DNA from: Macrocystis pyrifera
Lineage: Eukaryota; Sar; Phaeophyceae; Laminariales; Laminariaceae
NCBI GenBank assembly: GCA_031763025.1
Contig: JASSKH010000009.1
Coordinates: 2,170,001 to 2,234,000, forward strand
Reading direction: 5' to 3'
Length of the DNA: 64,000 bases
Within the stretch, counting starts at the first letter, position 1; every line of letters begins with the position of its first letter. The translations under genes were made by a program, and so were the position numbers. A model generated the notes under the pieces. The model searched no databases and had not been told where the DNA came from. It was given only the letters and a program-made list of their open reading frames with translations. This document shows, piece after piece, positions 4,471 through 58,840 of this stretch.

Positions 4471-4483
4471 AATCACCGAACTA

Positions 4484-5480: not shown

Positions 5481-5486
5481 GCCACT

Positions 5487-15375: not shown

Positions 15376-15440
15376 GGCGGTCCAGGAGCGCCTGCATAAG
15401 AAGCACAAGACCGGAGGAGACGTTGTTCCCATGGTAACGG
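15376..15440 (+). CDS. Exon 1 of the giant gene (first recognised)
   Basis: A strong polypyrimidine tract and CAG precede it. The frame reads AVQERLHKKHKTGGDVVPM and is basic. It enters in phase 2 and leaves in phase 1 if the donor is G-GTGCGT at 15441. A better-looking donor (ATG-GTAACG at 15433) would leave in phase 0 and not match exon 2. The phase-2 entry shows that earlier exons exist. Confidence 0.5.
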
Positions 15441-18400
15441 GTGCGTTCGAATCACCTCCGCATTTTGTTTTGGCGGGGTCGTTTTTGGTGCTCAATGCAT
15501 GATGCTGACTGCTTCTTCGTTTCTGTCTTCGAGTAGTTGCGTGCCCAACTATTGTTTCCGAAATTGTTAGGACAATGTGTTGGATGCGTGGTATTTCTCG
15601 TGTCCCGATGACCATGGCGTGTTTGCAAGTATAATACCATGGTACAGCAGTAGAGCTTATCGAAACCGCTAGAGGCATCCGCTGCAGACCGTATTTTAAT
15701 AGTGTGTCGCTCACGGCTTATAACCTGGGTAGCGTGTAAAGACGATGCTCCAGGGGGGGGGCTTTGTTAGCAGGCGGGCACCATTACGTATCCCCAACCG
15801 CCAATACCGTCCTCCTTGAGCTTCCGCTCATTTGATAGCCGCACGCGCACGATCAGCGAGCAGGGTTGCTCCAAACTTCAACGGCTCTGTAGCCTGTTTT
15901 GCAAGAGCCGTAGAGTTTTAGCCTGTTCAGCAAGAGCATTAGAACTCTGCCCGGACTACTAAGGGCAGTAGGTACGGGGGGGGGCACGCCTTCGACCACA
16001 GCTTATCCAGAACGCCGCTGAGGGTGAAACCTCCTACGAATTGAGCTCGAAACTAAAAGAAAAAGTGAAGATTATCAATATTGGAATTTTTTGCTCGATG
16101 GAAAGGCTTAAGGTGCTCGCACGGCAGCCAGGATTGGTTGTCCGCCTTGGCCCCCTCACCGCTTACCTTTACCACGCGGTCGTCGCGTCTTCCCCACAAT
16201 CGCAGAGATACGTGAAAAGCGCAGGAATACTAGATGTTTAGAAAGTGGCGGTGACGGTGGGGGCAGCTCTTCGGGCATCGCCGGGTCGCCAATGACCCTG
16301 CAGCTCGACGAGGATGACACGATATCAGACCTGGCCGATAGCGACGCCGAGGTAAAGGGGGGACATGGTGTTTTGGTTTCGTTCCCCATCTGTGCCGTGA
16401 TGTGGTGTGCGTTCTGGCTGACTGTTTTTCCTTCGATCAAGCGTAGGAGGGAAGCAATACGGGCGTTACAAGTCGGGTGCAAGCGCGAGGGTGGCTGATA
16501 TTTTTTTTTCTGGAATCAAATGGTAGCTGTTACAGACGTTCAGGCGCGATCGGCCAGCGGAACACACGGACGCAAGCTACGGAAGCAAAGGAAACCCAAG
16601 CCGGGAGACGGTGTTTTTTTTCTTCGAAAACTTGCGCAACAGCACAGCCGAGAAGAACGTTTGTTCTTGTGTGTCACGACCTTCTCGGCGTCTACAGCCG
16701 GAGGCCAGAAATAGAAGCTACCTCTATGGTATGAATAGCATCATCGGTGAAAAATGTACCAGGTAGCTTTCCTACAATTTTCACCTCTCCGCTAGAACCT
16801 TCAGGAACAAGGGAGGTCCTAAAAAAAGTGGAACGATCGACAGCATCGAAAATAGGTGACCGCGTTCTTTCGCGTCCGATTTTCGTTCGGCCCTTTGTTT
16901 ATGCTTCAACTCGTTTACTTCGTACGTCAAAGACTACGCTACGCTCATTCGAAGTCGAAGTTGTTCGTCCCTGAAAACGTGGGTACAGTGCTAAGCAGAT
17001 ATGTGACGAATTTTCTTAGCGCACACCAGGTTTCGTGCCTTGTTGCCGCTCTGGTCGAAACCGACGGGTGACACTTTTTTTTTTTTTCTTTTTAACAAAA
17101 ACGCTCCTCTTTTTTGGACAGGGCCGTGCGACGTTCGTTGCCGTGCTTGATCTAGAGGGGGCGCGCGCCGTCTCGTCTCCGGATACTGACCCCGTCGTCA
17201 CGAGCGTGGAACACGACAAACTTTCAAAGGGCCCCACCCAAGAAAACGGTAAGAGAGAGAGAGAGAGAGACGATCGGGCGAGTTTTTCAAGGGTAGTTTG
17301 CGGGCATCGACCGCTGTACGTTCCCGGCCTCCAAGATTTTGCGGGGGATTGGTTTCCAGCGAGAGCTATCTGCGGCGACACTTTGCGATAATAGCCGGTC
17401 GTGGCCCTTGGCCTTTGTAATCCAAGGGGATGGGGGGTGTCTGCGGTGGTTCGCTCGATGCTCGGCCGGCTGACCTTTAGCTACACGCCCCGAGCCGAGA
17501 ACGCTGAGCGTTCGTTTTGGATGAAGTTGCACTCGGCATTCACCCTAATATGTCACATGGGACACATAATGACCTACGGTAGATTATGATCTGCCGGTAT
17601 GAGATGTTGTGCAGGATCTATCTATTAATAGTAGAGGTTCAACCCAGGACATGTATGCCAGATCATACAGAGTACCAGGTATACGTTTCCCACCCAGAAG
17701 CATGAGCTAGATCATACAGATCAAGAATGATCTATCTGTCCTGAAGGATCTCATCTCAATCATGAAGTGGGAATGGTCTGTGGATGATCTGTCCGACTTG
17801 TTGAAATGTTGATCTTGTACCTTGTCCGAGACCTTCGTACTTTACGACATGACATGCGCACGTACAGCGCATGACGCCTATGAGTAGGAAAGAGGAATGC
17901 TGGCTCAGGCTGGATTTCTTATTTGGCAAGGGGTGCGTTCCACACTAGCTTCAGTGTAGCGGATCCTGAGTTTATTAGTTTCCTGCAAGTATCAACCTGA
18001 CTTTCTCAGTGCTCGATTTTGTAGCATATGTATTCTCGTATAGGTGTCCTGTACGATGTATGTGAGGATGACTTATCTGCGTCCTCGCCTCGATTATATC
18101 CCGCTGTTCTACTCCTGGTAATGCAAACGAGCGATTGGCACTATTAATAACGAGAAGCTGTGCATTGGATAGTCGTTGTGATTCATCGACCCACTTGGCC
18201 CCGCTTGCAGATCCCACTATTTCTGCAACGAAGCCCTCCACGGTCAGTGAGAACGGCAAGGGGAAAGGAAAGGCGGGGGTTCCGCACAAGATCTGCTACA
18301 CCGTGGCCGGCATGCCTCGTCCGATGAGAGAGGGTGCGTCAAGCGTCGTTGGTGAAAGGAGAGGCCCTCGCGAGGGAACCGTGGTCGCTCTGACCACCTG

Positions 18401-21400
18401 GAAACTGCGTGACCTCAAGGTAGGACTGCTCTGGAGGACTGTGTAAGACCTTTTGCCCTAGAACTAACCCCGACCGCCTGAAAAAAAAAAGCGGAATGAA
18501 GACTTAATGAGGAGTTCGTGTAGTCTATAAGGCTGTTTATATTGCGTTTTTTTTACGATTCGATTTGGGCTTTTCAGCCAATCGCAGAAGTTTTGCGCTC
18601 ACAAGGCAATGAAGTCGGCCGTGCGCTTGTCGGAATGAGTCCATGTACTCTCCGAGAGGTACGCAGTTCAAAAATCCGTTTTTCCGCCAGCGCAGTTCAA
18701 GTTGTGGCCGACCAGGCAAAATCTGCAAAAATGTGAAGTAGGTCCAAATCACAAAATGGGCCTATTTTCTACTTTCGAACGAGGGACAGCTTCAGACTAT
18801 TTTTCATCGGATTTTGCACTGCTGTGGTAAAAAAATCGAACTACGCCTCTGGATAAGCGGATTTTTGGGCACCCCTCAGAGAGACTCTGGACTCACTCCG
18901 AGAAGGTATGGCTGATTCGCTCGGTTTATCGGCCAAACACGAACATACACGTCAGAAAAGCCGAAATCGAATCGAAAAAAAAACGTACACGAAACAGCCT
19001 CAACCTTCTGAAGTTGGCTACATCGTAAACCTGGACTGTATGGACCTTGGCTCAGCTTCGACACAATACAATTACATATGTACTTGCTTTCAAGACTAAC
19101 TCTGACGCCAACCCCAACCGCCTGGGAAATTTCTCGGATTTGAAGAGGTATTGAGGCGTTATTAATAGTGTGGACTATCAACCATTCATCATCGAAGCTC
19201 GACGAAGTCGGTTGCACTACTGCTGTTGTGGGTGACTTCAAGTTGTAGGCGCGCGTGTAGGGCACGGACGGCTTATGTTTCTAGTTGTGAAATAGTGTGA
19301 TAGTCTGGTTCACGGATTTCGTTTCTCGCTGTGTGAGGTTGTGATACTCTGTTGCGAGCGTCTTTTACGTGTGTGAAGCGCATTTGCCATATGGGCTACA
19401 TGGCGTAAATGTTGCCTTTTGGTTTAGTCGTTGGGGCAGCCTGTACATTTCACGCTTGTACCGTGTGTTCACGTGTCATGTATAGAAGGGAAATGGATGA
19501 ACCTACTGAAAATGAAAAGAAGGCATGAAATCTACCTTGTAGCGAACAGCCGGGTCAAGTCCTTGAAGAGCTTTTGATCATGCTGGACAGACATTTTCGT
19601 ATTTACAAATTAGTCTGTAGGAACCCCGGGGGTGCCCGGATGTCACCGGACGATCACAACAGTCCGCCGTTTCACCCCTTTGTCCTCGTGTCGTGTCGTA
19701 CCCCTTGACCAGCAAGCGATCGCGAGAGCGGAAGGTGTAACCTTCACGGCAGACGCTGCCGCCCCTTTATCGGCCGAGGGCGAGAACGAGGCCAAAATCG
19801 ATATCAAGATAACGGTTGCGCCGAACGTGACGGTAAGCCGAGGGTATTTTTATCCCAAAGGGCCCAAAGTACCATACTGATTGTAGTTTTATGGGTATTG
19901 CCGACCCTCGTCGTCGGTTGTACGTATGAAAGTTGCAGTTATTGGTGCACCTAGCCCTACGTGCGATAAGGTGTTTACCGGGGAAAGAAAGACACTTGTG
20001 ACCACGGCTTGTCCGGCAGATCGTTTAGTGTAAAATCTCTTGCGAGTTCAGCTGGCAAGTAGACGTGACAAAAACAAGACAGAAATAACGTAGGTTTTTG
20101 CAACCTCATCAGTAGTAGTTTGCAAGGAAATGGCCACGTCTTCGGCGGGAGGCTGATTGGAGAGGAATTCCTAAACACGCAGCCATCGGTTATGCACACC
20201 ACCGACAACAACTGCGATGGCAGGTCCGCCCACCCGCTCCGTGTTGATAATTGCGTTCTGTCACAATCTATCGTGACCCTGCAACATACTACAGTAGACA
20301 CATTGTTCAGGCGTCGCTTTTCAACACGCGCGCTGCCGGTCTTTTCGCCAGGTTTCGGTTCAGCTCGGTAAATCGAAGACCGTCGGGGATCTCTGGGGTC
20401 AGGTAGCCCGCGCCGCAAGTGCCGATAAAAGAGCAACCGCCGAAGCTGCCGCCGTCGGCGGTGTTGGCGACACGGAAGGGTCCGCTAACACGCTGGCGGC
20501 GATTACCACGGCGGCGGTGCCGATGTCCGACCAGCAAGGCTTCGAGGGCGGTACGCCGGATGAAGGACATGAGGACAGCGACGGCGGTGGTGGTAACCGG
20601 GAGGGGAACGTGAGCAGCTCTGACACCCAAGCGTGTCTCCCACAGGGGCATGTGTTGATGCGTCAAGCTTCGGTCTCTGGAAAGGAAAATGCACCGAATT
20701 CCTCGTACTCCCGAGAGTTTGAGTCCCAAAGTGGTCCAGGGAGCTTCTTGGTGTTTTCTGAGGATACCGTCGGGCTCGAAGGTTGCAACCTGAGGAATGA
20801 TGAAGAGCTGATCCTGGTGCGGTTTGAGCGGCTGGTTGTCAGATATCTGTTGTTGTCACGAGGACCGATTGCCCATGCGTAGGTAGTAGGCATATATACA
20901 TCTAGGCTTACTTGGTTCGTTCGCAATGGATTTCAGCCCGCCTTGCTGCCTCTATTGTTTTCCCGGTTGTCATTCTCGTCTTCAATTTTGGCGTGTTCCT
21001 ATGTTCCTGCTCGAGGCAGTGAAGGCGAAGTCAAAAGCACCTACGGTGTGTCAGCACTTGCCGCACGACCTCATAATGTACAGCCACGACCACAACCATT
21101 GTCAATTTAATCGGTTTATTCTGATGTCGGTTTCATATGGCGAAAGGTGGGCCCGACGGCCATCTCTGCAGACGTCATACCCCACTGGATGGTCCAACTG
21201 CTAGTCCTGGGACAACCGGTAGGCTACGTCTGCATCCCCAACAGGCGCCTTGGGGAACCGGAAGGAAGCGACGCTGGAGCAGGCGGCAAGGCAGCGGCAA
21301 GCGTGGACGGAAAAAAAACTCGGAGGCGCAGAGGCAGAGATTGCTGAAAAGACTACACGACAGCTGCGAACCCTCGGTGACCTCCGAGCTGTCATCTGCG

Positions 21401-24400
21401 AGAAGCTCATGCTTACCCCCGATGGGGCTGATAGGGTGACGCTTTGGATCGCCCCCCCCGAGGACGACCGTACCAGCGGCGCTTTTCCGTCAACCCGCGG
21501 CGAGGGGGGCGTGAAGGAAAGCGCAGAGTCGAAGAATAGGCCAGACAAGCCCAGAGGGGAGAGAGCGACGTCCGACCACATGAGCCTGGGGCACTACGGT
21601 CTGCGTCACCTGAGCGTTGTGGATGTGCGGCTGCGATTTGCAGCACGGGAAAGCGCCGGCGATGAAAGCGGGGCAACTGGGAGTGGGGGTCGGGAAGAAG
21701 GCAGAGAGAAGAAAGGAGACGAGATGAGGGGGGGGCAGGAGGATCTTGTCAGGATAGTCGTCAAGACGAACCGGATGATGACTCGCGGGGAGAGCGGGAC
21801 GGTAAGGATTTGTCTGCGCGCGTGCTTTCACGTGGGAATGGGAGCATACCCGTGTCGCGGATAAATAACTACTGTGTTTGGGCGTGTTTTTCAGTGTTTG
21901 CGGCAAGAATTTTCGAATAGGCCGGACAAACCTCTTGCAGTACAAGAAGTGTTGTCTTGAAAAACGATGTTTACTGTACCAGATATGAGTCTATTCTTGT
22001 CGCGCGCTTGTGTGGCAGGCCTGCGATCATCAAGACTGTCTGTGCTTATTTGTTTTTTTATTCCACCATTTACTTCCACTCCTCCATGTGCGCAGGATAT
22101 TTTTGTGTCAAGGTCCACCTTCAGTCTTAGCCTGGTGAAGATTCTGGCTTCCCGGGCACTTAAACTCCCCCTGGCATCCGTTTCCCGCGTGTGCTGGCCC
22201 GGGGAGCAGTCGACATACTACTGTATGAAGAAATGGCTACACGAATACAAGGAGCTTGTCGGCAACGTAAGTCCTATCCGGTTCGGAGCCATGCTTACAG
22301 TAGGGCGGGTACCGAAGGGTTCTCAGGTTTCTCGCTTGTATAGCTCCATGCCCCCACCACCCCAAAACGAACGATTTTGATAGGGTTTAGCCAAGATCAG
22401 GTATATCTGGCCACTTCTGGGCCAAAATCAGTTACATACTAAAAACATGTACAAATCACACACCTGCTATTGGCCAAACTGACGTTGTACCTGACTTTTG
22501 CTCGGAAAGGCCAGGGTATACCTGGCTTTGTCCACTCTGTCTAGCTTTCAACTGATTTTGGCCAACTTTGAACCATTTTGAGAGGCCATAGGTACACTGT
22601 TTTTTCTCTGCGTATGCGTCTGCGGTCCCTCGGTTGCACAATTCTTGTGTATAAACTCTGTACTCGTAAGTACGTACGTATTTATGCATACATACGTACG
22701 GTGATTTCACTTTTTCTTTTTTTGGGGTGTACGAAGATTTCAGCAGATAGCATTTTCACCCCTCTACAGACAGCAACTTCGCCTCGACATGCCTCGACTG
22801 GCGCCAAACTACAAGGTTTTAGTGTGGAACACTCGGCCCTACACCCTCGACAGCGCACGTTTTGCCTTTTTTGACATGCCTCCTGACATATTTGGTGTAC
22901 GATGTGCTTTAGTTGTTATGATGTGTACTTTTTCGCTTTGTATGGCCTATACCCTAAATATAACAAAATAATTCAGATTTTGGAGGCCACACGTTTAATG
23001 TTCAGGCGCAGTTTTTTTTTAATTGGATTTTCATGGACACAACACCGCTCGTAGCGCGCGTTTTTTTGCTTGGTTTTAGTATGTACCCGGTTTTGACAAC
23101 ATAGATCAGGTATACCTGATTTTGGCCACAGCCCTTTTTGATAAGCTTTCCACGCGCAACCGGATGCACAATCTCGTTGTCTAGGTGAACTTTACGTCAG
23201 AAACGGGATCGCACAGATAGTGTACAGTTCTCTAGTTGAGGAGCCCGGTCACTTAGAAGCATTTGGGCGCAAACACATCCCATCTACCGCGCTGTAGAGG
23301 AATACGTGGTATACCGTACTGTAGAGGTACCGCACTGTAGAGGCATGGCTCTTGACGGAAGGGCGCGAGCTTTTGCATCGGGCGGACATGCAGTCGAGTA
23401 TGATACCCCATCGTTTGGTATACTGGGGCCTGGTTGGGCCCTTACCTTTGGTGCTCGAATATCATAGCGACGAGTTTGTTGGCACACGGAAGTTCCTTCG
23501 ACGCTTCTTTGAAGTTTCTTTTAGGCGTCTTCGAGGTTTCTTCGAAGTTTCTTTGAATCTTCTTTGCATTTTCTTTGAAGTTCCTTCGAGGTTTCTTTGA
23601 AGCGCCACCACTTGCGTTAACGTTGTACGAAGACGAAAACCTACCCACGCGCCGCACCTCTCCCCTGCTCGGGTTTTATTTTCACCCCCAAAACTCGTAA
23701 CCGTCCCTTTGTCCGTCTCCATGGCCGCTTCGTGTTGCCTGTCTCTACTTTGTTTTGTTGCAATAGTTGTCTGTTTCTCACCGGCTTGATACCCGTCACG
23801 TCCCTTTGTAAGTTCGGCCACGTCACCGAAACGACCTGCCCCTCTAGTTGCTAGCCGTTTCTTCTCCGGGACAATCCCTATGTAACATTGGCCAGGTTAC
23901 CGAAACAAGCTTCCCCTCTTGTTGCTGCCGTGGTGTTTGCGATTTCTATACCTGGTGTATCACACAGGGCGCTGCCATGGTCGTGCATGTGGCTGTGCCG
24001 ACGAAAAATATGTACTTTCACGGTAGCGGTGGGCCAAAGTCGGGGCGTGCTCCGCTGGAAAGGGAGTTGACGGAGCGCCCACTCGGGCGCACAACCATGG
24101 CCCTCTGGGTGAGAAAAGAGACTTTTCGACTTTACCATGTTCGTTTCGTGTATGTTAAAGCGGCATAGTCGCCGATGGAGCTGTTGTGAGTACAGCTTTA
24201 ACTGGTGTGCGCCGAAGTTCTGCTTTGGTTGGTGAGATGACACGGCGTTGGGCTGCGCCTCGCGCAGTTTGTCGGTGAAAATGAGAGCCTACAGTAGGGC
24301 AAGCTTCAACGTTTGTTGCCAGCAGGACTCAAGCTGACGCCCACAGCCTCACTCCTAATGAAATGCATGGCTTCTTGAGTCGAAAGCAACACGTTTCGGA

Positions 24401-51400: not shown

Positions 51401-54400
51401 ATTATAACTAGGTTGTTAAGGCGAAAACAGGACTGAACAATGCCCAAAGAGGCCTCTGAACAAGGCTAAAGAGGCCGCTATTCTAGGAGACTGAGTTTTA
51501 ACCCCTTGACTGATCACCCCCCTACGCTAAAGCTAGTTTGCTGAGACCGAAACAAGCCATAATAAGGAGCCTCTGAATGAGGCCAAAAGAGGCCGTTATA
51601 GTAGGAGACCGATGTTTGACCCCTTAGCTGACGGCCTCCCTACATTATTGAAACTGCAGTAGCTTCCCAGGGCCGAAACAGGCCTTAATAAGGCCAACGT
51701 AGGTCTATACATACGGCCCGAAAGACTTGTACGAATAGGAGACCGCGGTTTGACCATTTGACGCCCCCCCTACACTAAAACTAATATCTTGAGGCCAAAA
51801 GAAGCCTTCGCGCGCCTAAAAAGACCGGTCTCCTATTATAGCATGTTTTTGGTTAGAATCGCGTGCCGCTTCATATACCAAATACGAACGAGGCTCCACA
51901 ATTTATGCCCTCGATCGCTTTTTCTTGAAGGACTCAAGCGTACGATCTTGCGGTGGAAGTTGGACTGATCAGCTTCGGATCGGAGGTGGATGTCGTATGC
52001 GAACCCACCCCCCTGCTGGAAGACTTCCGTGACCAGGCGAGTTGCAGGGCACGGGTATTTGCGATGAGGCTGCGCGCACGTTTTCTCGCCATGTACACTT
52101 TGTTTTTTCGTATCAAGAGTGCGCATGATCTACGGATATATTCCATGCGGTCTGGAGGTAGATGTGTTTTATTCGTAGAGCAGTGCGTAGTCTGGATGTA
52201 CGTATGTGCTTCCTTTTGTGCAACCTGGATGTAGAACTTTTGCTTCTTTGTGCAGTGCTGATGTATATATTTTTCTTCGTGCAGAAGTGGCTACAGCGCG
52301 AAAGCGTCCGGACGAGCAAAAGGTGGCGAGGAGGCTCGTGAGTCTCTTCGCTAAGGCATTGGCGCAGCAACGACGAGTTATTCGACAGAGGACGGACAAT
52401 CGTTCTTTCCAGGACCCAGTAGGCCGTTCAGGCGCGCGTTTACGCTGTGCTGTTTTTTCCGCCCGTGTTGAGAATAAACCGTTTCGGAGGCGGTTTTTGT
52501 TTTTGGCGCGTCAAAACCTCTTCGGACCTTGATTTACTAGTTCAAGTGTAGGGGCGGTCAGTCAAGGGGTCAAACCATGGTCTCCTGTTGACTTTGATGT
52601 ACTAGTTTTAGGGCAGGGGAGGTCAGCCAAGGGGTGAAACCGCGGTCTCCTGCTGACCTCAATGTACTAGTTTCAATGTAGGAGGCGGTCAGTCAAGGAG
52701 CCAAACCGCGGTTTCCTGTATATAGCATATTTGGTTGGAAACTTTTGGTGCGTGTTGCCGTCTAGGAAGAGGGCCCCACATTTTTTTGTTGTTTGAAAGA
52801 ACCATGTTTTCAGGTGTTTCGAAAGATAATAACGAATGTTCTCTGTACATGCTACACGTACTCGTACCCAGCGTAGTTTGCCTCTTGTGTGTGAACGCCA
52901 CGTTTACTTTCTTGGAGGCGTTTCTTAGCCGGACACGTTTTTCCAGCAGTAACATCGATATGCCACAAGCAACTATTACGGGGGACCATAGTAAATGGGA
53001 CCTACGGTGAACCCAAAAACCTATACATTTCCCTGTGTTTACCAACAACATTTGGTCCTATTCACTATGGTCCCCCGTAATAGTACGAGGGGGCATAATA
53101 GTCAGAACCCACGATGGACGCTCAAACAATACTATCCCGTTAGGTTTACGCACCATGTTTGGTTCTGATCACTGTGCCCCCCCGTAAATACGGCGAGAAC
53201 GAACGGTATCACCCACATCCGTCCTGCGTTGTTTTTCCTGGTTCTCTCCCGCCAACTCTAGGTAGACATTCTGTCCAACAGCGGCGACACACGTCTCTGG
53301 GACGCCTTGCAGATGGCGTACACCCTCATCAAGAAATGGAGGTCCACCTGGAAGTCCAAGGCCAAGCAGCGCCGCGCCGCTGACCACCGCCGCAAAAATG
53401 CCTCCGCCGCGGGGCATAGCAATGGTGGTGACAGCGACCGAGACATCCAAGCTAGTCGCGATGAAGAGCCGATCGCGCGAGTACTGGTGCTGAGTGACGG
53501 GAAGGACACCAAGTCGGATGCAAGCGCGCACCTGTGAGACTGGGGTGATGTTTGCATGCAGTTGAGATAGGGGTTTAAGGGGTGGGACTTTGGGCGGGGC
53601 GTTGCAAAGGGATGGGTGGGGGTGGAGAGCTGGCGGTTGAAAATTGGTGACCCCCCCCCGTTTCGTTCGTGTGGCTCTGATGTATCTTGGAGAGGAACGT
53701 GCTATGAGGTGTATTGCAACGTTAAGCTGGTCGACCGCGCAGGCGCTCGAGCGCGTTGGAGAGACATATGATGTGTTACTCGTGATTCATCAGGACTGAT
53801 AAAGAGCTCTAGCTCTCGCCCCCGCGTCCCTGATCCCTCCCCCCGTCTCCCCCCCCCCTCCCCGCTTCTTCCACATTTCTCCCTCTCTCCCCCCCATCCC
53901 GAGCGCAGCGTTTGCAATCATCTTCAGAGGGCGGGTGTTTTGGTGGACAGCGTTACGGTGGGAGCGGAAAGGAACGAGTCTCTCAAGTGCCTGTCGCTGG
54001 CGACGAGTGGGTATGCCTTCCACCCAACGAGCCTCCGGCAGGCGCTGAGGCTGAGCGAGCTTGAGACGGTGCTGAGCGCTGGGCAGCGGGCACGGCGGGT
54101 GTCGAGCACGAAGGGGCGGAAGAACAGCGGCCCCTTGACCAAGCTGGTGGGGATATATCTTTTGCTATTTTTTTCTTGATCACAATTGTTGCCCCTCTGG
54201 CGTAGAGCCGTCAGGTGGAAGAGAGGAGTGCGATGCAGCCGTTGAAATTTGGAATCACGCTCCTTCAGCTGGACGTTTTGTTTCTTTTCTCAATAGGAAG
54301 ACAAAAAAATGTTCGTAGGTGCTATAGATCGGGTAAATACAGCAGTGTTTTTTTGTCATCAGATTCCTGACATGAGGAGCTCTCTGTACCTCACCCAAAC

Positions 54401-57400
54401 AACGACTTTTGATGAAAATGAACATGAGGACACGCGCAACCCGTTTTGGACAAAATTCCGCCCGCTATGACAACGTAGGCATGTAACGAGAATGTTGGAG
54501 GCGCTCGCAAATGTTGCCGTATATAATCCTGACCAGCATATTTTCTTCTTCGTTTCGAATTTGGGCTTGATGTTTGGCGCTGTTTGGCGCTCTTACGATA
54601 TTAGCCCTTTCGGGGGACTTTTTATGAGGGGAACCCTGATCGAAGATATATGTTACAAGTTTCAGCATCGGCCTCGCGAAGCAGTCTGTCACAGGCCATA
54701 GGCTGCTGGGATATTAGGGGATGTATCCGAGGTGAAACTTAGGGAGATGTGCATGGTGAACCTTAGGGAGATGCACATACAGCACGTGTGCCGAGCATTA
54801 TCACACTTGTACTGCTGCACGCTATGATACACCTTTTGAGGCGTTCCGAGAAACTTGATAAAACCACTATTGACTGGCCTTTTAGTTGGTCGCTTTACAT
54901 GGGGTCCGAAAGAGCCATAAAGTAAGCTAATCTTGGCTGCCTTGCGGGTCAAAACCGCCTTTAATCAGTGCAACCGGTGCTGTCGTGGTATCGCATGATA
55001 CACCGCCAACCAGAAAGCATTGCTTTTTTTTCTACACGCAACGAGCCCGCAAAAAGTCGAAGCTTACGCAGTACGTACTACTGCTGAGCGTACTGGAAAA
55101 AAAAAACGCTCAGAACCCCGTTTTTGTTTCAGGGCTTCTGAGGGGAGGGGAGGAGGAGTGTACTCGATATCATGCATGGCCGTAGTCGTATAACCATAAA
55201 CCCTCGCATCTCTACAATGCCGGGACGGAGCATGTCGGGTTTTCACCGACCAGGCAGACATTGCTTGCACCAAGCGCGAAGCGCCGTCAGGTGCCTGACG
55301 AGTCGCATGTAGGGTAAGCTGCATCCTACCAAGAACCGCTTGTGAGGCGGACTTGCATCTGGATGAAAGCTTCAATGAGTTGATATAATTTCCGGTGTGG
55401 CCACTACCAGCGACAGCAATAGGAGTACTATGTAACTGCATATTGGGTGCCTTACCATTAGCACTACGTGCTAGGATCATTCCCCTTGTGCGGAGTAAAG
55501 ATTCTCCACGCGGTACTAATGATCTAACTCGACCCCCAGCTGTGACCGACCGCCAAAAACGAAAAAGCGGTACACTGGTTATCTGGCTCAAGTACTGAGC
55601 GGCATATTTACAGTGTCGTTGCCAACCGACGTCAACCCAAGCTATTCATATTATTTAGGGGGGGGGGGGGCGTACTCATTCGTTGCTTGCCTCCGTCATT
55701 TGACCATTGACCACGCATCCCTTTCAAGACGGAGCACCGTTCCTACTCCTACTGTAATAGAGACACCAGCAATTGGCGCTCATTACGTCGTTTCCATATA
55801 CTGCATAGAAACGTTTTGCTTATTTTATCCCCTCCTGTTTCGCCGCCTGTGGTCACCACCTATCTTGTGGGATAGCGATTTTTTTCTCGCTGCTGTCTAG
55901 TGTGCCAACCTCCTCCAAGTCACATTCGTATATTTCCCTCATCTCCTCTGCGAGAACGTCCCGTTTCTCCTTGTACACTTCACATCGTCCTACTATGTTA
56001 GTTCTACTCGCTATTGCTTTGCCACACGGGCACATCTTTGGGGAAACACGTTGAAAATGGATTTACTTGATTATTGTACAGCATTGGCCGCACCAAGCTG
56101 GCCGGGGTACTGGGGTATACCAGTAGGGGATAGGGGATGCGCCCAAAAAAGCTGCAATGCACGGACCTGTATGACACGCATGCAGCATCATCACGATACT
56201 TGTACTACTGCTGTTGCGTGCTCTTTCCTATGCCGGGGTAACATATCTTATCATATTATAGGGTAGTCATAATCAAACATGGTGTGTAAATATACAGGGG
56301 TACATGTTTTTTCTAGGTCCATCGTGGTTCTGATTCCTACTTTAGCCCCCACCCCCTGTCCCGGCATTGTAGGGATGCGAGGGTCTACGGCCATACGACT
56401 ACGCCCATGCATGATATCGAGTACATCCCCTACTCACCACCATATTATACAGGTGTCGAGCGAAAGCCAGCTGTTGGCCGAGGCGCGTATGAGCTCGGCA
56501 CACGACACCGAAGAGACCGCGACTCTCAGGGAGGACCCCAAGACCAAGAGCATATGCAGGTGAGGCATTGATTGTCGTGGACAAAACAACAATCGAGCGC
56601 GCCACGATGCATTCGAGCATCCGTGCAATAAATTGTGTTTGACATTTTATTACAAGCGAGGCGAGTTGCTACTTTTCAGGGCTATTCACGGGTCGGGTCA
56701 AACCTTGCGGGTCAGGTCGAGGCGGGATAGGTATAGGTGATTCGACCCTACCCGTTAGAGTTTGAAGACCTCCTGACCCGACCCGACCCGACCCGACCCG
56801 ATCCGTGAGATTAAAAATATCTTCACCCGACCCGCGAGTCGGGCCATGACCCGTGTAGAGTCCTGAAAACTTTTGTTTGCACGGCCGTCTAAAAGATAGG
56901 GGGTCCTTTCGAGTTGGGTGAAGCCGGGGAAATGTGGGTCGTCCGACCGACCGAAAATCGCTCTCAAAAGCATTCGTACCTCATTCGTTTCATGTTTCTG
57001 TGCCTTCGACCAGCGCACTTGTGACAAAGAGCGTCAAATATACTTACCATTATGGGCGGACATACAAGGACCGTCAGGTCTTGACATTTATGTTTAAACG
57101 CTATTTTGGGGGACCATAGTTAGTAGGACCTATGGTGTACATTAAAACCTATTTATGTACCTATTTTCCACTGACAATATTCGGTCCTATTTACTATGGT
57201 CCCCCGCATTACTGTAGTTATGTTTCCGCCCAGATTTTTCCGCCCAGAATGGCATATACATACACGTACCCACCGGCGCGAGTTGGTAGCGAGCGAGAGA
57301 GCGAGAAAGGGCGACCCTGTAAAGACGCAAGGTCGATTTTGTGGTTGTTGTGGTTGTTGTTGCTGGTGTTGGTCGTAGGTTGTTGTCCTTGTTGTCGTCG

Positions 57401-58840
57401 ATGTTGACGTCGCTGTCGATCTCGCATCAGATAATTTTCCATACTGGTGTAATCCGCTATGGGGGATCATATTAATCAGGACCCACCAAAAACCTATATA
57501 TTCTACGAAAGGTTGCGTGCCGACTACCAGGTAAACGCGTTCCGGGTGCCTCACACCGCAATCGCATACCTCAGCGTCATATCACCGTCGGAGGGTACGA
57601 AAAATCGTGCACGACGTTCCCACGGGACAACCAACGGTAGCAGAACCCCTAATCAACTACTGTAGGCTACAAGTTTGAGGACACTAAGGAAGAGAAGGAA
57701 CCCACAGAACGGATACGAATCAAACGAACGACGGCCTTGAGATAAGAGAAGGGTCAACAAGTATGGGTATGATCTCATGCCGCAGCAGAGAGGCCTCATT
57801 GATCCCAAACTATATACGAATTAACCTACGACGCAATGTTACAGCAGTAGTCTGAAACAGAAAAGAGGGGACGCCAGCAGAGTGGGTCCCTTTTAGGGAA
57901 AACCTCAATGTTGTACTGGAAGACAGTGACTACTTATCACTCCGTGAGCGATATCGCAGCTCTTCAACAGCACGACAAAGTCGAAAGAGGCTTGGAAAAA
58001 ACAGACCATCCCGCCCGCCCATCGTTGGTAGCGAGGTGTACCGTCGACAACATCAGTTTTGTTAGTGTTTATTTTACCGGGGTACCTACTCTCTGCCACG
58101 AAGTGCCGCGTTGATTGTCAGACAATTGACGCGGAAGTAGTAACCCTGGGTGAGAGTCTCCGGCTGGTCGCAGCAGGAGGCCTCATTGATCCCAAACCAT
58201 ATACCAGTACGAGTTAGCCTACGACGCAATGTTTCAACAGTAACTTTACTGAGCGTATTTAGTCCTGATTACAATGTTCCTCCGTAATAGCCGGTGGTCA
58301 CGAATAAGACACAATTGAGTCCACCTTTTTCCAGGGAAAGTAAACTTCGAGAGCGGTTACATAAGCTGAAGTTAGTGTAGAAAAGATCTTTGCTAAGCAA
58401 ACAAATCTAGCCTAAGGCCATTATTCCGGTTTCTTGAGAGAAGGCCGGTGCAGTATATATACTTCGTAATATACTATATATACTTCGTAATGTATTATAT
58501 ATACTTTGTAATATATTATGTATACTTCGTAATATATTTGTCCTCTACCAGTACATTTCGTTAAGCGATGAAACCGCGCGCCCTTCCTCCCTCGTGTTGG
58601 GGATTGGACTGCAGGCCATTGCTTGCTGCGCTCGCTGGCATTGCGCCGACAGAGAGCACTGCTGCCAAAGATGGTGCAGGCGGCGGCGGCGGCAGCGGCG
58701 GTGGGAGCGGTGCTTCGTCGACGGAGGCGCGCGCGATGCACCGCCGGACGCGCGGGAATGCCGGCGGTGGGGCGGTGCATCGCGAGCGTGCGCGTCGCGT
58801 TCAGCAGGAAATGATGAACATGATCAAGAACCCACACCCG
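15376..58840 (+). CDS. Giant spliced gene: multi-UBL, U-box, vWA ubiquitin ligase (exons 1-30, both ends open)
   Basis: Thirty coding segments on the plus strand are joined by GT-AG introns (one GC-AG). Phase matches at every junction, and domains continue across splice sites, which is the main evidence for one gene. Predicted order: UBL-like segments (exons 1-10), acidic helical region (11), linker and vWA strand with DxSxS (12-15), acidic linkers (16-17), U-box (18-20), UBL (21-23), vWA remainder (25-28), low-complexity linker and E2-like helix (29-30). U-boxes recruit E2 enzymes and act as ubiquitin ligases, so the expected role is ubiquitin transfer, with UBL and vWA parts probably binding partners. 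Start codon and final exons are not identified. Exon 11 has a one-base frameshift. Codon totals are about 2,030. Alternatives: a recently broken pseudogene, or two adjacent genes, although continuity across the introns argues against that. Confidence 0.75.
16206..16351 (+). CDS. Exon 2, Gly/Ser linker and UBL C-terminal strand
   Basis: It follows TCTTCCCCACAATCGCAG and ends at GAG-GTAAAG. It contains a Gly/Ser-rich stretch and then MTLQLDEDDTISDLADSDAE, which resembles the last part of a ubiquitin fold (L-x-D-x-T-I-x-D-L). Phase 1 in, 0 out. Confidence 0.62.
17122..17248 (+). CDS. Exon 3, end of UBL and linker
   Basis: Begins after TTTTTTGGACAG and ends at AACG-GTAAGA. ATFVAVLDLEG continues the beta strand of the UBL begun in exon 2. 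An acidic and polar linker follows. Phase 0 in, 1 out. A GA dinucleotide repeat (about 17252-17270) starts right after the donor. Confidence 0.65.
18211..18419 (+). CDS. Exon 4, start of second UBL-like segment
   Basis: Bounded by GCTTGCAG and AAG-GTAGGA. After a Lys/Gly-rich stretch (GKGKGKAG) comes ICYTVAGMP, then GTVVALTTWKLRDLK, which looks like a ubiquitin-fold hairpin entering its helix. Phase 1 in, 0 out. The length fits 69 codons plus two bases exactly. Confidence 0.7.
18578..18658 (+). CDS. Exon 5, helix of second UBL-like segment
   Basis: Twenty-seven codons between TTTTCAG and GAG-GTACGC, reading PIAEVLRSQGNEVGRALVGM. It continues the helix predicted at the end of exon 4 (LRDLK-PIAEVL). 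Phase 0-0. Confidence 0.65.
19713..19832 (+). CDS. Exon 6, start of third UBL
   Basis: Forty codons between CTTGACCAG and ACG-GTAAGC. It ends KIDIKITVAPNVT, a clear first beta strand and turn of a ubiquitin fold that continues in exon 7. Phase 0-0. Confidence 0.7.
20352..20834 (+). CDS. Exon 7, third UBL with a long insert
   Basis: It starts after TTTTCGCCAG with VSVQLGKSKTVGDLWGQVAR, the second strand and helix of the UBL begun in exon 6. An Ala- and acid/Gly-rich insert follows, then SFLVFSEDTVGLEGCNLRND and EELILVRFE, the closing strands. The donor is uncertain: 20609 (GTGAGC, strong), 20816 (GTGCGG) and 20834 (GTTGTC) are all in phase 0. I favour a late one because the closing UBL strands lie beyond 20609. 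Confidence 0.65.
21223..21801 (+). CDS. Exon 8, fourth UBL and start of fifth
   Basis: 193 codons from ACCGGTAG to ACG-GTAAGG, phase 0-0. A charged, probably coiled-coil segment (RQAWTEKKLGGAEAEIAEK) precedes RTLGDLRAVICEKL and DRVTLWIAPPEDD. After a charged insert come LGHYGLRHLSVVDVRLRFA (fourth UBL end) and DLVRIVVKTNRMM (fifth UBL first strand). The acceptor could alternatively be the stronger AACAG at 21244, but that breaks phase. Confidence 0.72.
22096..22266 (+). CDS. Exon 9, core of fifth UBL
   Basis: Fifty-seven codons between TGTGCGCAG and AAC-GTAAGT, phase 0-0. DIFVSRSTFSLSLVKILASR is the second strand and helix of the UBL started in exon 8, followed by SRVCWPG and an aromatic, charged stretch (YYCMKKWLHEYKE). 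Confidence 0.75.
22385..23135. mobile_element. TIR element (copy 2), uninterrupted
   Basis: About 750 bp with imperfect inverted termini of about 80 bp (GCCAAGATCAGGTATATCTG at the left, mirrored by GATCAGGTATACCTGATTTT at the right). It is a reverse-oriented paralogue of 1220-1439 plus 5765-6427. It shows the unoccupied retrotransposon target (TTTA at 22908-22911, corresponding to TGAA in copy 1). It lies in intron 9. Confidence 0.72.
23487..23603. repeat. Degenerate GAAGTTTCTTCGAGG minisatellite
   Basis: About eight imperfect copies of a 12-15 bp unit based on GAAGTTTCTTCGA and CGAGGTTTCTTTGA. It lies in intron 9. Minus-strand frames through it give Lys/Thr-rich artefacts. Confidence 0.7.
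25042..25211 (+). CDS. Exon 10, end of fifth UBL
   Basis: 56 codons plus two bases from ACCGGTAG to CCAG-GTGTGG. It ends LEEWGLLRGNVHVYVVFYN, the typical closing turn and strand of a UBL (L-x-x-x-G-L-x-x-x-x-x-V). Phase 0 in, 2 out. The acceptor resembles that of exon 8. Confidence 0.68.
25747..26683 (+). CDS. Exon 11, long acidic helical region with a frameshift
   Basis: The largest exon (937 bp). An acidic region (SEQDDDKGEEDD) is followed by helices rich in Leu and Cys (CFLSCLYMLLNHLREVEEEW, LALHQLRDVGGVTEAECACL). The frame then shifts: the continuation LVREIVPRDVLDRCVLEHSR lies in the next frame, and both halves fit together if the GGGGG at 26187-26191 has one base too many. The later part has an Ala/Thr run and KFEVV before the donor TG-GTGGGA. 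The family is not recognised. The shift may be an assembly error or a disabling mutation. Confidence 0.68.
27300..27575 (+). CDS. Exon 12, proline-run linker and helices
   Basis: It has one of the best acceptors here (long T-rich tract then TTGCAG) and the donor TTGC-GTGAGT. It encodes LSGTAEENDLPLADRRG, a proline run from a C homopolymer at about 27381-27399, then DSMEDPMSWLSLVDWKSCVR and HRWARVIAPLSL. Phase 2 in and 2 out, matching both neighbours. The C tract length decides the frame, so it deserves checking in reads. Confidence 0.65.
28774..28904 (+). CDS. Exon 13
   Basis: Between CTCCTGGGAGCAG and GAGG-GTGAGA, phase 2 in and 1 out. It reads RDREGRMCVMTGTSKSALRN, LIIFSPLEGGTTFDE. Strand-rich; it could belong to the fold that includes the vWA start in exons 14-15, but no domain is named. 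Confidence 0.62.
28970..29105 (+). repeat. CTG/GTT triplet repeat
   Basis: About 130 bp of imperfect trinucleotides (GCTGCTGCTG, GTTGCTACTG, GCCGCTGCC). It directly follows exon 13. The Ala/Val-rich open frame here is a repeat artefact. Confidence 0.75.
29487..30020 (-). repeat. Dispersed element, inverted partner of 57500-58240
   Basis: Its reverse complement matches 57500-58240 over several hundred bases. Shared landmarks include GAGAGTCTCCGGCTGGTCGC, CCTCATTGATCCCAAAC and GGTAGCAGAA. The order of blocks is the same in reverse. No intact coding frame was seen. Confidence 0.72.
31003..31118 (+). CDS. Exon 14, leads into the vWA first strand
   Basis: Between CCTCGGGCAG and GTG-GTGAGT, phase 1 in, 0 out. 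HALAQALSKLAKRKGGLPGG is helical and basic. The exon ends VARELIV, which with exon 15 forms a hydrophobic strand right before an MIDAS motif. Confidence 0.68.
31479..31580 (+). CDS. Exon 15, vWA MIDAS DxSxS motif
   Basis: Thirty-four codons between CACCGCCAG and ACG-GTATGT, phase 0-0. It begins VCMDSSYSMGG. D-S-S-Y-S (31488-31502) preceded by a hydrophobic strand and followed by M and Gly is the DxSxS metal-ion-dependent adhesion site at the start of vWA domains. An acidic stretch (FEDDKDSDAEDKAKE) follows instead of the usual first helix. Confidence 0.72.
32470..32550. mobile_element. Small TIR family B, copy 1
   Basis: Starts AATCAGAACCAAATATGGTG and ends TAGGTTCTGATT. About 80 bp. The inner part (GTTAACAAAGAGGCATACCT) matches copies at 34029, 53091 and 56268. 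Confidence 0.6.
32986..33123 (+). CDS. Exon 16, acidic linker
   Basis: Forty-six codons between CATCCTCAG and GAG-GTAACT, phase 0-0. After LVFDWSLPPSGSRASSDENF it is dominated by Asp, Glu and Ser (VSSDDESENVGEFEGSE). Probably disordered. Confidence 0.7.
33914..34027. mobile_element. MITE family A, copy 2
   Basis: About 114 bp with termini TTTACGGGGGACCATAGTGA and TTTACTATGGTCCCCCGTGG. The centre has ACCTACGGTACACACAAAAA. It is immediately followed by a family B copy. Confidence 0.78.
34029..34103. mobile_element. Small TIR family B, copy 2
   Basis: AGAACCAAATATGGGGTC at the left and CCACGTGGGTTCTGATTAC at the right. It lies one or two bases from the end of MITE A copy 2. Confidence 0.6.
34288..34461 (+). 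CDS. Exon 17, helical segment before the U-box
   Basis: Fifty-eight codons between CTCCTCAG and GAG-GTAATG, phase 0-0. Helix-rich and basic: RWKERTLKTALKDALISHAC, LPQLREVARMLDRRFGSL. GC-rich codon use contrasts with the flanking AT-rich introns. Confidence 0.75.
35055..35908. mobile_element. hAT-like non-autonomous element made of GGGTC repeats
   Basis: Flanked by identical 8 bp GTAAATAG (35047-35054 and 35909-35916). The termini are CAGGGCTTTTCGCGGGTCA and its exact inverse. CAGGG ends plus an 8 bp target duplication are the hallmark of the hAT superfamily. The interior is two arrays (about 35075-35300 and 35570-35890) of CGGGTCGGGTCGGGTCA separated by short spacers (AAGAGGTTTTCAAA-like), around a 250 bp unique centre. 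There is no transposase, so it would need one in trans. Intron 17. Confidence 0.88.
36915..37305 (+). repeat. Direct repeat of about 100 bp, two copies
   Basis: About 36925-37035 and 37200-37300 share TTTTCGCG, GTTATCGGT, CGTCGAGCC, CTGCCTTCAACTGGG/CTGCTTTCAACCGGG, and TTGGCAATTTCTTGC-like. Intron 17. No coding role is evident. Confidence 0.5.
37808..37933 (+). CDS. Exon 18, start of the U-box
   Basis: Forty-two codons between CGTGCCAG and CAG-GTCAGG, phase 0-0. A charged helix (VYRRYRKEFMDILLEKEGD) leads to APRQFICPITQ. The FICPIT signature is the first loop of U-box domains, RING-like folds held by hydrogen bonds instead of zinc. Confidence 0.85.
39940..40222. repeat. CCA/TGG triplet arrays facing each other
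   Basis: ACC repeats at 39940-39990, GGT repeats at 40001-40040, ACC repeats at 40118-40165 and GGT repeats at 40198-40218. Opposed arrays could fold into hairpins. The His-rich and Val-rich open frames in this area are artefacts. Intron 18. Confidence 0.8.
42010..42123. mobile_element. MITE family A, copy 3
   Basis: Termini CTATTACGGGGGACCATAGT and ACTATGGTCCCCCGTAATAG are perfect inverted repeats, extending imperfectly to about 30 bp. The orientation of the centre (AGGTTTTGTGTGTG) is opposite to copies 1, 2 and 5. Intron 18. Confidence 0.82.
42745..42785 (+). CDS. Exon 19, U-box centre (41 bp micro-exon)
   Basis: Only 41 bp, between GCTTTGGCAG and CACAG-GTGAGA, phase 0 in, 2 out. It encodes GLMVDPAVAVDGH, the conserved middle of the U-box (canonical form L-M-x-D-P-V-x-x-x-D-G-H). 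It lies 4.8 kb after exon 18, the largest intron found. Confidence 0.88.
43260..43700 (+). repeat. C-tract element family, two partial copies in tandem
   Basis: Both copies carry GTGAAAACCC..CTCCGTCCCGG..ATTGTAGGGAT and ATGGTCATACGACTACGGCC-like sequence, and both end in long C runs (22 C at 43501-43522; about 16 C at 43674-43690). It is the right-end portion of the element seen complete at 45466 and, inverted, at 47500 and 55140. Just upstream of exon 20. Confidence 0.7.
43725..43860 (+). CDS. Exon 20, end of the U-box
   Basis: Between TGCTGCTGTAG and CAG-GTGGGG, phase 2 in, 0 out. YERHAILEWFSACTSSGRP, then SSPMTGEEI and SNLALKSRIQ complete the U-box (Y-E-R-x-A-I-x-x-W, S-P-x-T, N-x-A-L-x-x-x-I). 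All three U-box exons join without gaps, so the domain is intact. The E2-binding hydrophobic residues (I in FICPIT, P in SPMT) are present. Confidence 0.88.
44009..44118. mobile_element. MITE family A, copy 4
   Basis: Begins ATTACGGGGGACCACAGTAA and ends TTTACTATGGTCTCCCGTAA. The centre reads AGGTTTTTGTGTGTACCGTA. Just after exon 20. Confidence 0.8.
44839..44952 (+). CDS. Exon 21, acidic linker entering a UBL
   Basis: Thirty-eight codons between TTCGGCAG and CAC-GTGAGG, phase 0-0. EWVLEGSKENDRGAGTDGED continues the last U-box helix (SRIQ-EWV). The exon ends ILDIH, the first strand of the UBL in exon 22. Confidence 0.75.
45466..46012 (+). mobile_element. C-tract element, full-length plus-oriented copy
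   Basis: About 545 bp between two C homopolymers (45459-45471 and 46000-46010). It contains GGTTGGGTTGGCGTCGGTTG near the left, CTCACTACGTGAGCTAGACA, GGCGCTTCGCGCTTGGTGCA and GGTCATACGACTACGGCCAT near the right. No coding frame. Intron 21. Confidence 0.72.
46992..47264 (+). CDS. Exon 22, UBL with basic Gly-rich insert
   Basis: Ninety-one codons between AAACCTTCAG and CTG-GTGAGG, phase 0-0. IKVRYGDKTYDMPV and IERIKAFVSRR form the hairpin and helix of a ubiquitin fold. Then comes a Gly run with a very basic stretch (RGCRNRKGRKRRP), possibly a nuclear localisation signal. RTIRLIHKGNRL then resumes the fold (compare ubiquitin L-I-F-A-G-K-x-L). Confidence 0.82.
47330..47870 (-). mobile_element. 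C-tract element, minus-oriented copies
   Basis: Reverse complement of the 45466 element: CATGGCCGTAGTCGTATGAC occurs three times (47320, 47460, 47550), so the outer 100 bp is repeated. The main copy runs to about 47830 and ends beside a G run at 47855-47869. It lies inside intron 22, which splits the UBL. Confidence 0.7.
48413..48615 (+). CDS. Exon 23, UBL end and a beta-rich segment
   Basis: Starts after TGTTTCGCAG. YSLLGLLEGDVVLAL closes the UBL of exon 22, in phase 0. The rest (VSFTVKLEQSGERGMFLLAR, SFSIKLRLWARRVL) is beta-rich and basic. The exon ends at TGC-GTGAGA in phase 2; reading through would give an immediate TGA stop. Confidence 0.78.
49148..49336 (+). CDS. Exon 24, linker and strand before vWA helix 1
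   Basis: Sixty-two full codons, between TCCGTAG and ACAG-GTGAAC, phase 2-2. GMCPPAPKPSSIVLAQTEGA is linker-like. It ends VCTLEVYMADPYR, a strand. A vWA DxSxS is not present here, although this is where one would be expected in an uninterrupted vWA domain. Confidence 0.68.
50345..50456. mobile_element. MITE family A, strongly diverged relative
   Basis: It has ACCATGGGGATTATAC at the left, GTAGGTTTTTGTGTACATGC inside and TGATTACTATGGTTCCCCGC at the right. The order matches family A but many bases differ. Confidence 0.45.
50617..50691 (+). CDS. Exon 25, vWA helix 1
   Basis: Seventy-five bases between TGTGCCGCAG and AACAG-GTGGGG, phase 2-2. STSSSRPSLTRLDAVKQLFH then AYINR is the amphipathic first helix of a vWA domain (R-L-x-A-x-K motif). 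Confidence 0.8.
51195..51850 (+). repeat. Degenerate tandem array before exon 26
   Basis: About five units of about 120 bp. Each has AGGAGACCG, TTTGACCCCTTGGCTGAC, CTACACTAAAACTAG and runs of AGGCCAAAAGAGGCC. Copies are clearly diverged. The last unit ends about 80 bp before exon 26. Confidence 0.78.
51931..52036 (+). CDS. Exon 26, vWA strand 2-3, with a GC donor
   Basis: Enters in phase 2 after TTCTTGAAG and leaves in phase 0. AYDLAVEVGLISFGSEVDVV and TPLLEDFRDQ are the usual vWA strands (VGLITF-like) and the segment before the MIDAS Thr. The only donor that keeps frame with exon 27 is CAG-GCGAGT, a GC donor. Both sides of the exon carry tandem repeat arrays. Confidence 0.82.
52510..52735 (-). 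repeat. Tandem array after exon 26, opposite orientation
   Basis: Three units of about 65 bp: GTACTAGTTT..GGCGGTCAGTCAAGGGGTCA..CGGTCTCCTG. Each is the reverse complement of part of the unit upstream of exon 26. Exon 26 therefore lies between inverted arrays. Confidence 0.75.
52972..53084. mobile_element. MITE family A, copy 5
   Basis: Perfect outer inverted repeats ACTATTACGGGGGACCATAG and CTATGGTCCCCCGTAATAGT. About 113 bp. In intron 26, followed seven bases later by a family B copy. Confidence 0.82.
53091..53180. mobile_element. Small TIR family B, copy 3
   Basis: GGCATAATAGTCAGAACCCA at the left, and GGTTCTGATCACTGTGCC at the right as its approximate inverse. About 90 bp. Confidence 0.58.
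53262..53533 (+). CDS. Exon 27, vWA core with MIDAS Thr and Asp
   Basis: Starts after CCAACTCTAG. VDILSNSGDTRLWDALQMAY holds the MIDAS Thr (GDT, 53289-53291). A basic insert (KKWRSTWKSKAKQRRAADHR) follows, then ARVLVLSDGKDT with the MIDAS Asp (53496-53498). It ends in phase 2 at CACCT-GTGAGA; unspliced reading gives a TGA two bases later. Confidence 0.85.
53930..54146 (+). CDS. Exon 28, vWA C-terminal half
   Basis: Begins after TCTTCAGAG, phase 2 in, and ends CTG-GTGGGG, phase 0. GVLVDSVTVGAERNESLKCL and TSGYAFHPTSLRQALRL give the last strands and helices of the vWA domain (V-D-S-V-x-V-G, then Gly-Tyr-x-F). A basic tail (RARRVSSTKGRKN) follows. The acceptor two bases upstream (CAG at 53927) would break phase. 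Confidence 0.82.
55140..55672 (-). mobile_element. C-tract element, minus-oriented full copy
   Basis: About 530 bp from GAGGGGAGGGGAGG to the G run at 55658-55670. It matches the 45466 copy in reverse order, including CGTGAGGCGGAC-like, TTTCCGGTGTGGCCAC and CCAACCGACGTCAACCCAA. Intron 28. Confidence 0.72.
55672..56035 (-). pseudogene. RT C-terminal fragment, inverted partner of 63383-63712
   Basis: On the minus strand the frame has CPCGKAIASRTNIVGRCEVY, KEKRDVLAEEM and GTLDSSEKKIAI. The pattern CxC..H/N-I-V-x-x-C-x-x-Y is the short zinc-binding end found after some non-LTR reverse transcriptases. The DNA is the reverse complement of 63440-63712. Only the extreme C-terminal end is left. Confidence 0.5.
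56268..56350. mobile_element. Small TIR family B, copy 4
   Basis: Contains ATAATCAAACATGGTGTGTA, GGGGTACATGTTTTTTC and CATCGTGGTTCTGATTCC, the same plan as the copies at 32470 and 34029. Confidence 0.55.
56453..56559 (+). CDS. Exon 29, polar linker
   Basis: Between TATTATACAG and GCAG-GTGAGG, phase 0 in, 2 out. VSSESQLLAEARMSSAHDTE then ETATLREDPKTKSIC. No domain; probably a helical linker. Confidence 0.7.
56677..56865. mobile_element. Second, smaller hAT-like GGGTC element
   Basis: CAGGGCTATTCACGGGTC at the left and GACCCGTGTAGAGTCCTG at the right are imperfect inverses of each other and match the 35 kb element ends. The interior has GACCCGACCCGACCC runs. No clear target duplication. Intron 29. 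Confidence 0.65.
57101..57212. mobile_element. MITE family A, copy 6
   Basis: Begins CTATTTTGGGGGACCATAGT, ends ACTATGGTCCCCCGCATTAC, with AATATTCGGTCCTATT near the right end. Intron 29. Confidence 0.75.
57500..58240 (+). repeat. Dispersed element, inverted partner of 29487-30020
   Basis: Opposite orientation to the copy in intron 13. It contains two partial copies of the CCTCATTGATCCCAAAC..CCTACGACGCAATGTT block (about 57790-57845 and 58178-58235), suggesting an internal duplication or two fragments. Open frames here are not exons. Confidence 0.72.
58450..58545. repeat. 21 bp AT-rich tandem repeat, four copies
   Basis: Unit TATATATACTTCGTAATATA with small variations. The 21 bp period gives a 7-residue periodic minus-strand frame that is an artefact. 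It lies just before exon 30. Confidence 0.78.
58615..58840 (+). CDS. Exon 30, low-complexity linker and E2-like first helix
   Basis: Starts after GGATTGGACTGCAG (phase 2) and ends CCG-GTGAGG (phase 0). A Gly/Ser/Ala-rich linker precedes HRERARRVQQEMMNMIKNPH followed by P. That pattern (basic helix, then N-P-x-P) matches the N-terminal helix of E2 ubiquitin-conjugating domains. The catalytic Cys region would be in later exons, which I did not find before 64 kb. Confidence 0.65.

Follow-up and report, generated by a model that had tools for sequence, protein, structure and literature searches.

The window analyzed here, 64,000 nucleotides of the brown alga Macrocystis pyrifera (contig JASSKH010000009.1, positions 2,170,001 to 2,234,000), contains a giant spliced gene whose 31 exons form a single chain on the plus strand from 15376 to 58840. 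This gene almost certainly belongs to a family in which a ubiquitin-conjugating (E2) domain is fused to a ubiquitin-ligase (E3) module, the 'putative bifunctional E2/E3 enzyme' or R795-like proteins, and it adds a new member to a group of proteins that databases already list by name. Its E3 module, a U-box, is embedded in a von Willebrand factor type A (vWA) domain, and an E2 (UBC) domain begins in the last exon. An initial annotation of the same DNA had described the U-box and the vWA domain and had overlooked both the embedding and the E2. The embedded position of the U-box, together with an Asp substitution in the E2 of the relatives, may be the parts that specialists do not know. On balance, comparison with these relatives leads us to favor a gene product that works as a self-contained ligase.

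Protein searches with window-derived queries gathered 104 relatives, from Laminaria, Symbiodinium, Chromera, many fungi, sponge, fish, giant viruses, and environmental data, and including two brown-alga-like proteins, P0001 and P0002. P0001 is homologous over a long stretch, aligning to 98% of the searched region (residues 1290-1890) with 51% identity. Among named proteins, identity was highest for the partial Laminaria digitata P0003, at 87%, with 20% of that region aligned. When compared with the window by tblastn, P0003 (20601 to 44874) and P0001 (16199 to 58837) matched a common series of exons, collinear and all on one strand, and the pieces of P0002 likewise matched the window exons in order. 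In a tree built from the C-terminal half of the vWA domain and the E2, in which 66 of 98 rows were usable, the window grouped with P0001 and P0002 as a set of three (support 100/99). The bifunctional name is attached to proteins of Terrestrivirus (P0026), Cercospora (P0074), and Pseudocercospora, and a Septoria protein (P0080) is entered as 'Putative ubiquitin-conjugating enzyme E2, von Willebrand factor, type A, U-box'; the earlier statement that no named family has the full combination was thus wrong. The Mimivirus protein of the family is presumably R795. In an eel expression table, one transcript bears the name 'probable bifunctional e2 e3 enzyme r795' (PMC5560681). A full-text literature search that covered few subscription papers found no study of the family or of E2-E3 fusions, and the combination of U-box, vWA, and UBC goes unmentioned in excerpts of PMC4327156, PMC11354881, and PMC11915834.

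The U-box inside the vWA domain

The U-box is divided among exon 19 (37808-37933, start, APRQFICPITQ), exon 20 (42745-42785, middle, GLMVDPAVAVDGH), and exon 21 (43725-43860, end, YERHAILEWF..SPMTGEEI), all identified by Pfam and tblastn. Its splice sites are good: FICPITQ is followed by gtcagg at 37933, exon 20 runs from ag before GLMVDPAVAVDGH to gtgaga after ACACAG, and tag precedes CTATGAG in exon 21. The spliced segment matched PF04564 with an E value of 2.3e-14 (53.7 bits against a cutoff of 21.4), and a longer single piece rescanned by Pfam gave 8.5e-14, bearing out the earlier claim of a complete U-box over three exons at these positions.

The vWA domain likewise held up. Pfam matched VWA_2 in exons 25-29 at 33.5 bits against a cutoff of 27 (E value of 7e-8), beginning at profile position 9 and lacking strand 1; the longer piece gave 1.3e-8. 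The first strand and the MIDAS motif (ELIVVCMDSSYSM) lie upstream of the U-box, at 31.0-31.6 kb, where exons 13-15 (28774-28904, 31003-31118, and 31479-31580) encode the pre-vWA region followed by strand 1 and the MIDAS loop (N-half profile, 132 bits). The remainder, from helix 1 (LTRLDAVKQLFHAYINR) to GDT and SDGKDTKS, is encoded by exons 26-29 (50617-50691, 51931-52036, 53262-53533, and 53909-54146; C-half profile, 251 bits). All three MIDAS elements of the window, DSSYS, GDT, and SDG, were found. In the window protein, numbered on an earlier 33-exon model, profiles placed the vWA N-half at residues 1025-1154, the U-box at 1330-1405, and the C-half at 1664-1888, so that the U-box lies between the MIDAS loop and helix 1. 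At the junction, the sponge sequence AIIVLLDVSWSM-DEEYEHG-MTRLQAVKQLFHAF aligns with IVVCMDSSYSM, approximately 525 residues, and LTRLDAVKQLFHAY in the window. The insert opens with an acidic, probably helical stretch (exons 16-18, 32986-33123, 34288-34461, and 36355-36435, placed by tblastn).

Ubiquitin-like (UBL) segments, several of which had been proposed, are probably present, although the evidence for them is indirect. The scanned pieces of the window (exons 1-10, the first part of exon 11, and exons 14-31, with the insert segment) gave no ubiquitin-family Pfam match, the best hit being OTU1_UBXL below cutoff (E value of 0.17). Exons 22-25 (44839-44952, 46992-47264, 48413-48615, and 49148-49336), however, lie at the position in the insert where relatives P0004 and P0101 carry PF00240. 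An hhalign comparison of this region with a segment that carries PF00240 gave 96.7% over 98 columns, mostly behind the PF00240 stretch itself, and the structure model of a relative shows a beta-grasp-like strand order. Because the UBLs are indirectly supported and the frame breaks twice, the initial observation as a whole is only partly confirmed.

Profiles of the vWA N-half, the vWA C-half, and the E2 were built from nine relatives, and that of the U-box from eight; they were searched against the 104 proteins and the window model, and the counts include the seeds. The order vWA N-half, U-box, vWA C-half, E2 was found in 77 of the 104 proteins, with 248 to 998 residues between the vWA halves. 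In 16 others, here called the C-terminal type, the halves are 3 to 8 residues apart and the U-box follows the E2; these 16 rows formed one set in the tree (support 99/92). The remaining 11 are six agaric fungi in which the insert is present and the U-box unmatched, P0017, P0054, and the three proteins in which the E2 was unmatched, P0003 (partial), P0053, and P0102. The MIDAS motif DxSxS was present in 102 of the 103 rows with both vWA halves matched, the window included. With 22 of its 63 inner branches unresolved, many of them deep, the tree does not give the direction in which the U-box moved.

Individual relatives showed further variation. The agaric proteins (P0012, P0044, P0046, P0047, P0049, and P0052) keep the vWA insert and the E2 with no detectable U-box, and in the U-box-less set the residues behind the E2 cysteine are mostly unlike those of the rest of the family. 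P0017 has a 275-residue gap between its vWA halves with a UBL at 756-822; its U-box was unmatched, and its E2 is followed by a RING (zf-C3HC4_3), so that its E3 module seems to have been exchanged. In P0054, the vWA domain was matched from profile position 1 and the U-box was unmatched. A second, degenerate N-terminal U-box was considered and is not claimed: hhalign gave 93% for ten C-terminal-type segments against the family U-box and 0.2% for the algal proteins. For the P0023 model, the best 50 Foldseek rows were for the most part E2 chains; chains of the TFIIH vWA domain took ranks 8 and 30.

The E2 domain, a proposed mechanism, and rival explanations

Exon 31 (58615-58840, supported by tblastn) encodes a linker and the first helix of the E2 domain (HRERARRVQQEMMNMIKNPHP), which is 65% identical over 20 residues to E2 helix 1 of P0001 (E value of 2.5e-4). 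The relatives have a complete E2 with its active-site cysteine, and the residue counts given below describe these relatives because the window E2 is unreadable beyond helix 1. Residues were read at fixed distances from the cysteine, skipping 15 of 105 rows in which the E2 motif was missing or incomplete. The equivalent of Asn77 was present in all 90 E2s examined.

Since the relatives carry the E2 cysteine, the protein is probably itself an enzyme. The interpretation first offered, a scaffold-like ubiquitin ligase, is accordingly supported in part: a ligase with a U-box, a vWA domain, and probably UBLs fits, while 'scaffold-like' is too weak. In the mechanism that we propose, an E1 would load ubiquitin onto the C-terminal E2 cysteine, and the target would be held at the metal site (MIDAS) of the vWA domain. 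The U-box, hung from the MIDAS-forming loop, would sit beside the bound target and promote ubiquitin transfer to it from the E2 of its own or a partner chain; the UBL segments may serve to dock proteasomes or to regulate the E2. In integrins, vWA helix 1 can shift when a ligand binds at the MIDAS, and an insert between the MIDAS loop and helix 1 could therefore let target binding switch the U-box on. By this analogy, ligand-gated switching is conceivable and is put forward tentatively. An extended version, which we hold equally loosely, is a target-gated enzyme in which movement of helix 1 would swing the U-box onto the fused E2, remodeled on the side that faces the E3 (Ala96 to Asp). The two would form a private E2-E3 pair free of cross-talk with other RING ligases, and the E3 module would have moved (inside the vWA domain, after the E2 as a U-box, after the E2 as a RING, or lost) around a constant vWA-E2 core. 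Ubiquitin transfer normally requires separate E2 and E3 proteins. If the proposal is correct, a widespread family that fuses them, houses the E3 within a metal-dependent binding site, and has another residue at a standard E2-E3 contact would offer a natural experiment on how the specificity of E2-E3 pairs is established and switched.

We regard a fused E2-E3 enzyme as the best explanation overall, with moderate confidence, every step past the domain assignments being inferred. Several observations weigh against it. The E2 of the window itself was not seen past helix 1: the last 5.2 kb of the window showed no further E2 exon, and a tblastn search of the entire window with the E2 of P0001 gave, among the best eight rows, helix 1 alone below an E value of 0.1. 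The U-box profile found no match in 8 of the 104 relatives, and the vWA domain of P0001 falls below the Pfam cutoff (19.4 against 27 bits). By simple patterns, the rest of the MIDAS is less uniform than DxSxS: the DT motif appears in 71 of 103 rows (AT or GT in 13, none in 19), and the DG motif keeps its Asp in 95. To our knowledge, no activity, target, or structure has been measured for the family. By a loose pattern, the U-box position that many ligases fill with an Arg 'linchpin' holds Gly in 51 of the 80 embedded-type rows, a set that includes the window, and Arg in 5. The position of UBE2D Ala96 is occupied by Asp in 48 of the 66 embedded-type proteins, in 13 of the 16 of C-terminal type, and in 7 of 8 U-box-less ones. 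Phe at the position of UBE2D Phe62 was found once among the 66 and in none of the 16. According to PMC13290226, F62A/A96D break RING/U-box contacts; with the NleG U-box effectors, F62A had no such effect (PMC2891834). Collectively, the changes at Ala96, Phe62, and the linchpin argue against ordinary docking of the U-box on the E2 and point either to an altered, private contact or to two independent activities.

The latter is the foremost rival: the U-box would use free cellular E2s and the fused E2 would act independently of any RING or U-box, as UBE2O and BIRC6 are thought to do, giving parallel activities on one target scaffold. We consider this possible but rather improbable. The residues at the Ala96 and Phe62 positions and the effect of F62A/A96D speak for it, as do the six agaric relatives with E2 and vWA but an unmatched U-box and P0017 with its RING after the E2 and likewise an unmatched U-box. 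However, fungi, animals, algae, protists, and viruses all keep both modules in a single chain, which counts against it because unpaired modules could separate freely, and changes in the U-box may have kept pace with those in the E2.

The remaining rivals concern the gene itself rather than its enzymology. That it is a decaying copy of a family gene is unlikely, even though two apparent frameshifts relative to the intact Laminaria P0003, near 21.32 kb (exon 7) and 26.19 kb (exon 11), could signal damage and also count against a working enzyme. Both lie at homopolymer runs, a usual site of long-read assembly errors, and the relatives have intact copies. Read as three translated pieces between the shifts, with the sequence left unaltered, the gene has no stop codon in any piece, and its splice sites, MIDAS residues, and U-box residues are all intact; assembly error is likelier than a damaged gene as the cause of both shifts. 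It is very unlikely that two or more neighboring genes were wrongly joined. The very long introns, up to 4.8 kb, and a gene known from genomic sequence alone would allow for this, yet the same order occurs within one protein in P0001, P0002, P0015, and P0018 and in the transcript P0101. Moreover, the vWA domain spans the U-box exons, so that a gene split at the U-box would cut a domain. Least probable of all is that the gene came from, or is part of, a giant virus integrated into a brown-algal genome. Its architecture is shared by proteins of Mimivirus and Terrestrivirus, but the gene has at least 31 exons, and in the tree the two viral rows form, with five other rows, a clade of their own (100/100) amid embedded-type rows, apart from the window, P0001, and P0002. 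Three peptide-pattern scans of viral contigs and one of genome contigs, for viral and prokaryote relatives, confirmed none; they carry little weight because few patterns were used.

Exon chain and other elements in the window

The exon chain came from a strict home-made splice model that was then corrected by tblastn of P0001, P0002, and P0003. It totals 6,291 coding bases with introns of 294 to 4,811 bp and one GC-AG donor, in intron-rich eukaryotic DNA of approximately 50% GC. The single chain and the interval ends agree with the initial annotation, which had described thirty phase-consistent exons; 31 are counted here, and the frame is broken at the two places noted above. A weakly penalized splice model gave a useless 702-exon path and was rejected for the stricter one, and reverse-strand prediction scored lower than the plus strand. 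The earlier 33-exon chain was replaced after tblastn: its exons 16536-16610 and 57512-57594 had no support from relatives and were dropped, and it had omitted 22096-22266 and misplaced some exon ends (e.g., 58653-58856).

Exons 1-7 (15376-15440, 16206-16351, 17122-17248, 18211-18419, 19713-19832, 20352-20816, and 21147-21801), supported by tblastn of all three relatives, encode the N-terminal region with possible UBL-like segments. Exons 8-12 (22096-22266, 23968-24108, 25042-25211, 25747-26746, and 27402-27575) encode a conserved linker and helical region, with tblastn pieces 56 to 83% identical to P0003, and exon 30 (56453-56559), 54% identical to P0001, encodes the linker that joins the vWA domain to the E2. 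The window truncates the gene at both ends: the chain opens inside a reading frame, and most of the E2 would lie beyond the right edge. By tblastn, neither the extra upstream sequence of P0002 nor a first UBL exon upstream of the chain was found in the window. The P0002 model opens with a uracil-DNA glycosylase domain (PF03167), reflecting either a real fusion or joined gene models.

At 1442-5718, a minus-strand integrase (open reading frame 2716-4389; rve, 3.8e-8; Integrase_H2C2, 9.7e-8) is flanked by near-identical direct repeats of approximately 230 bp (1442-1672 and 5489-5718), with a 126-bp tandem repeat inside at 4829-5352; the element looks like a short long-terminal-repeat retrotransposon. 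A dispersed repeat family occupies 45718-46009, 47509-47827, and 55151-55450, with shorter copies at 43.4, 43.6, 56.3, and 63.7 kb. These copies, in introns and downstream, are direct and inverted and 66 to 94% alike, some with a terminal C-run. A minisatellite of CGGGT-rich units lies within an intron of the E2-E3 gene at 35082-35848.

Comparison with known systems

Plant U-box ligases (U-box protein 12, 7xed_C; 1t1h) share the U-box motif with the window gene over the whole domain; in contrast, their E2 is separate, and vWA, UBL, and UBC are not known from the same chain. The vWA domains of the TFIIH subunit and Rpn10 are uninterrupted and have other partners. BIRC6 and UBE2O are large, contain a UBC domain, and act as E2 and ligase; neither is known to have a U-box or a vWA domain. 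They are likened to the window gene by description, not by sequence. Both are named as large multidomain E2 proteins in an excerpt of PMC11354881.

The closest architectures are found within the family. In the Mimivirus-type P0099 and P0026 and in fungal and protist relatives, as in the window, the U-box lies between the MIDAS loop and helix 1. The Mimivirus-type enzymes have their E2 at the C-terminal end, while most of that of the window gene would fall outside the window. P0099, at 1,297 amino acids, also has an N-terminal zf-rbx1 RING-H2, whereas the algal gene is longer and intron-rich, and Pfam found no RING-H2 in the scanned window pieces. This extra RBX1/APC11-like RING-H2, a second E3-type module, occurs in P0005 and P0006 as well. 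The sponge Oopsacas (P0042) and fish Serrasalmus (P0104) proteins resemble the window gene in having a vWA domain and then an E2, plus a U-box; unlike in the window, their vWA domain is uninterrupted and the U-box is C-terminal, after the E2.
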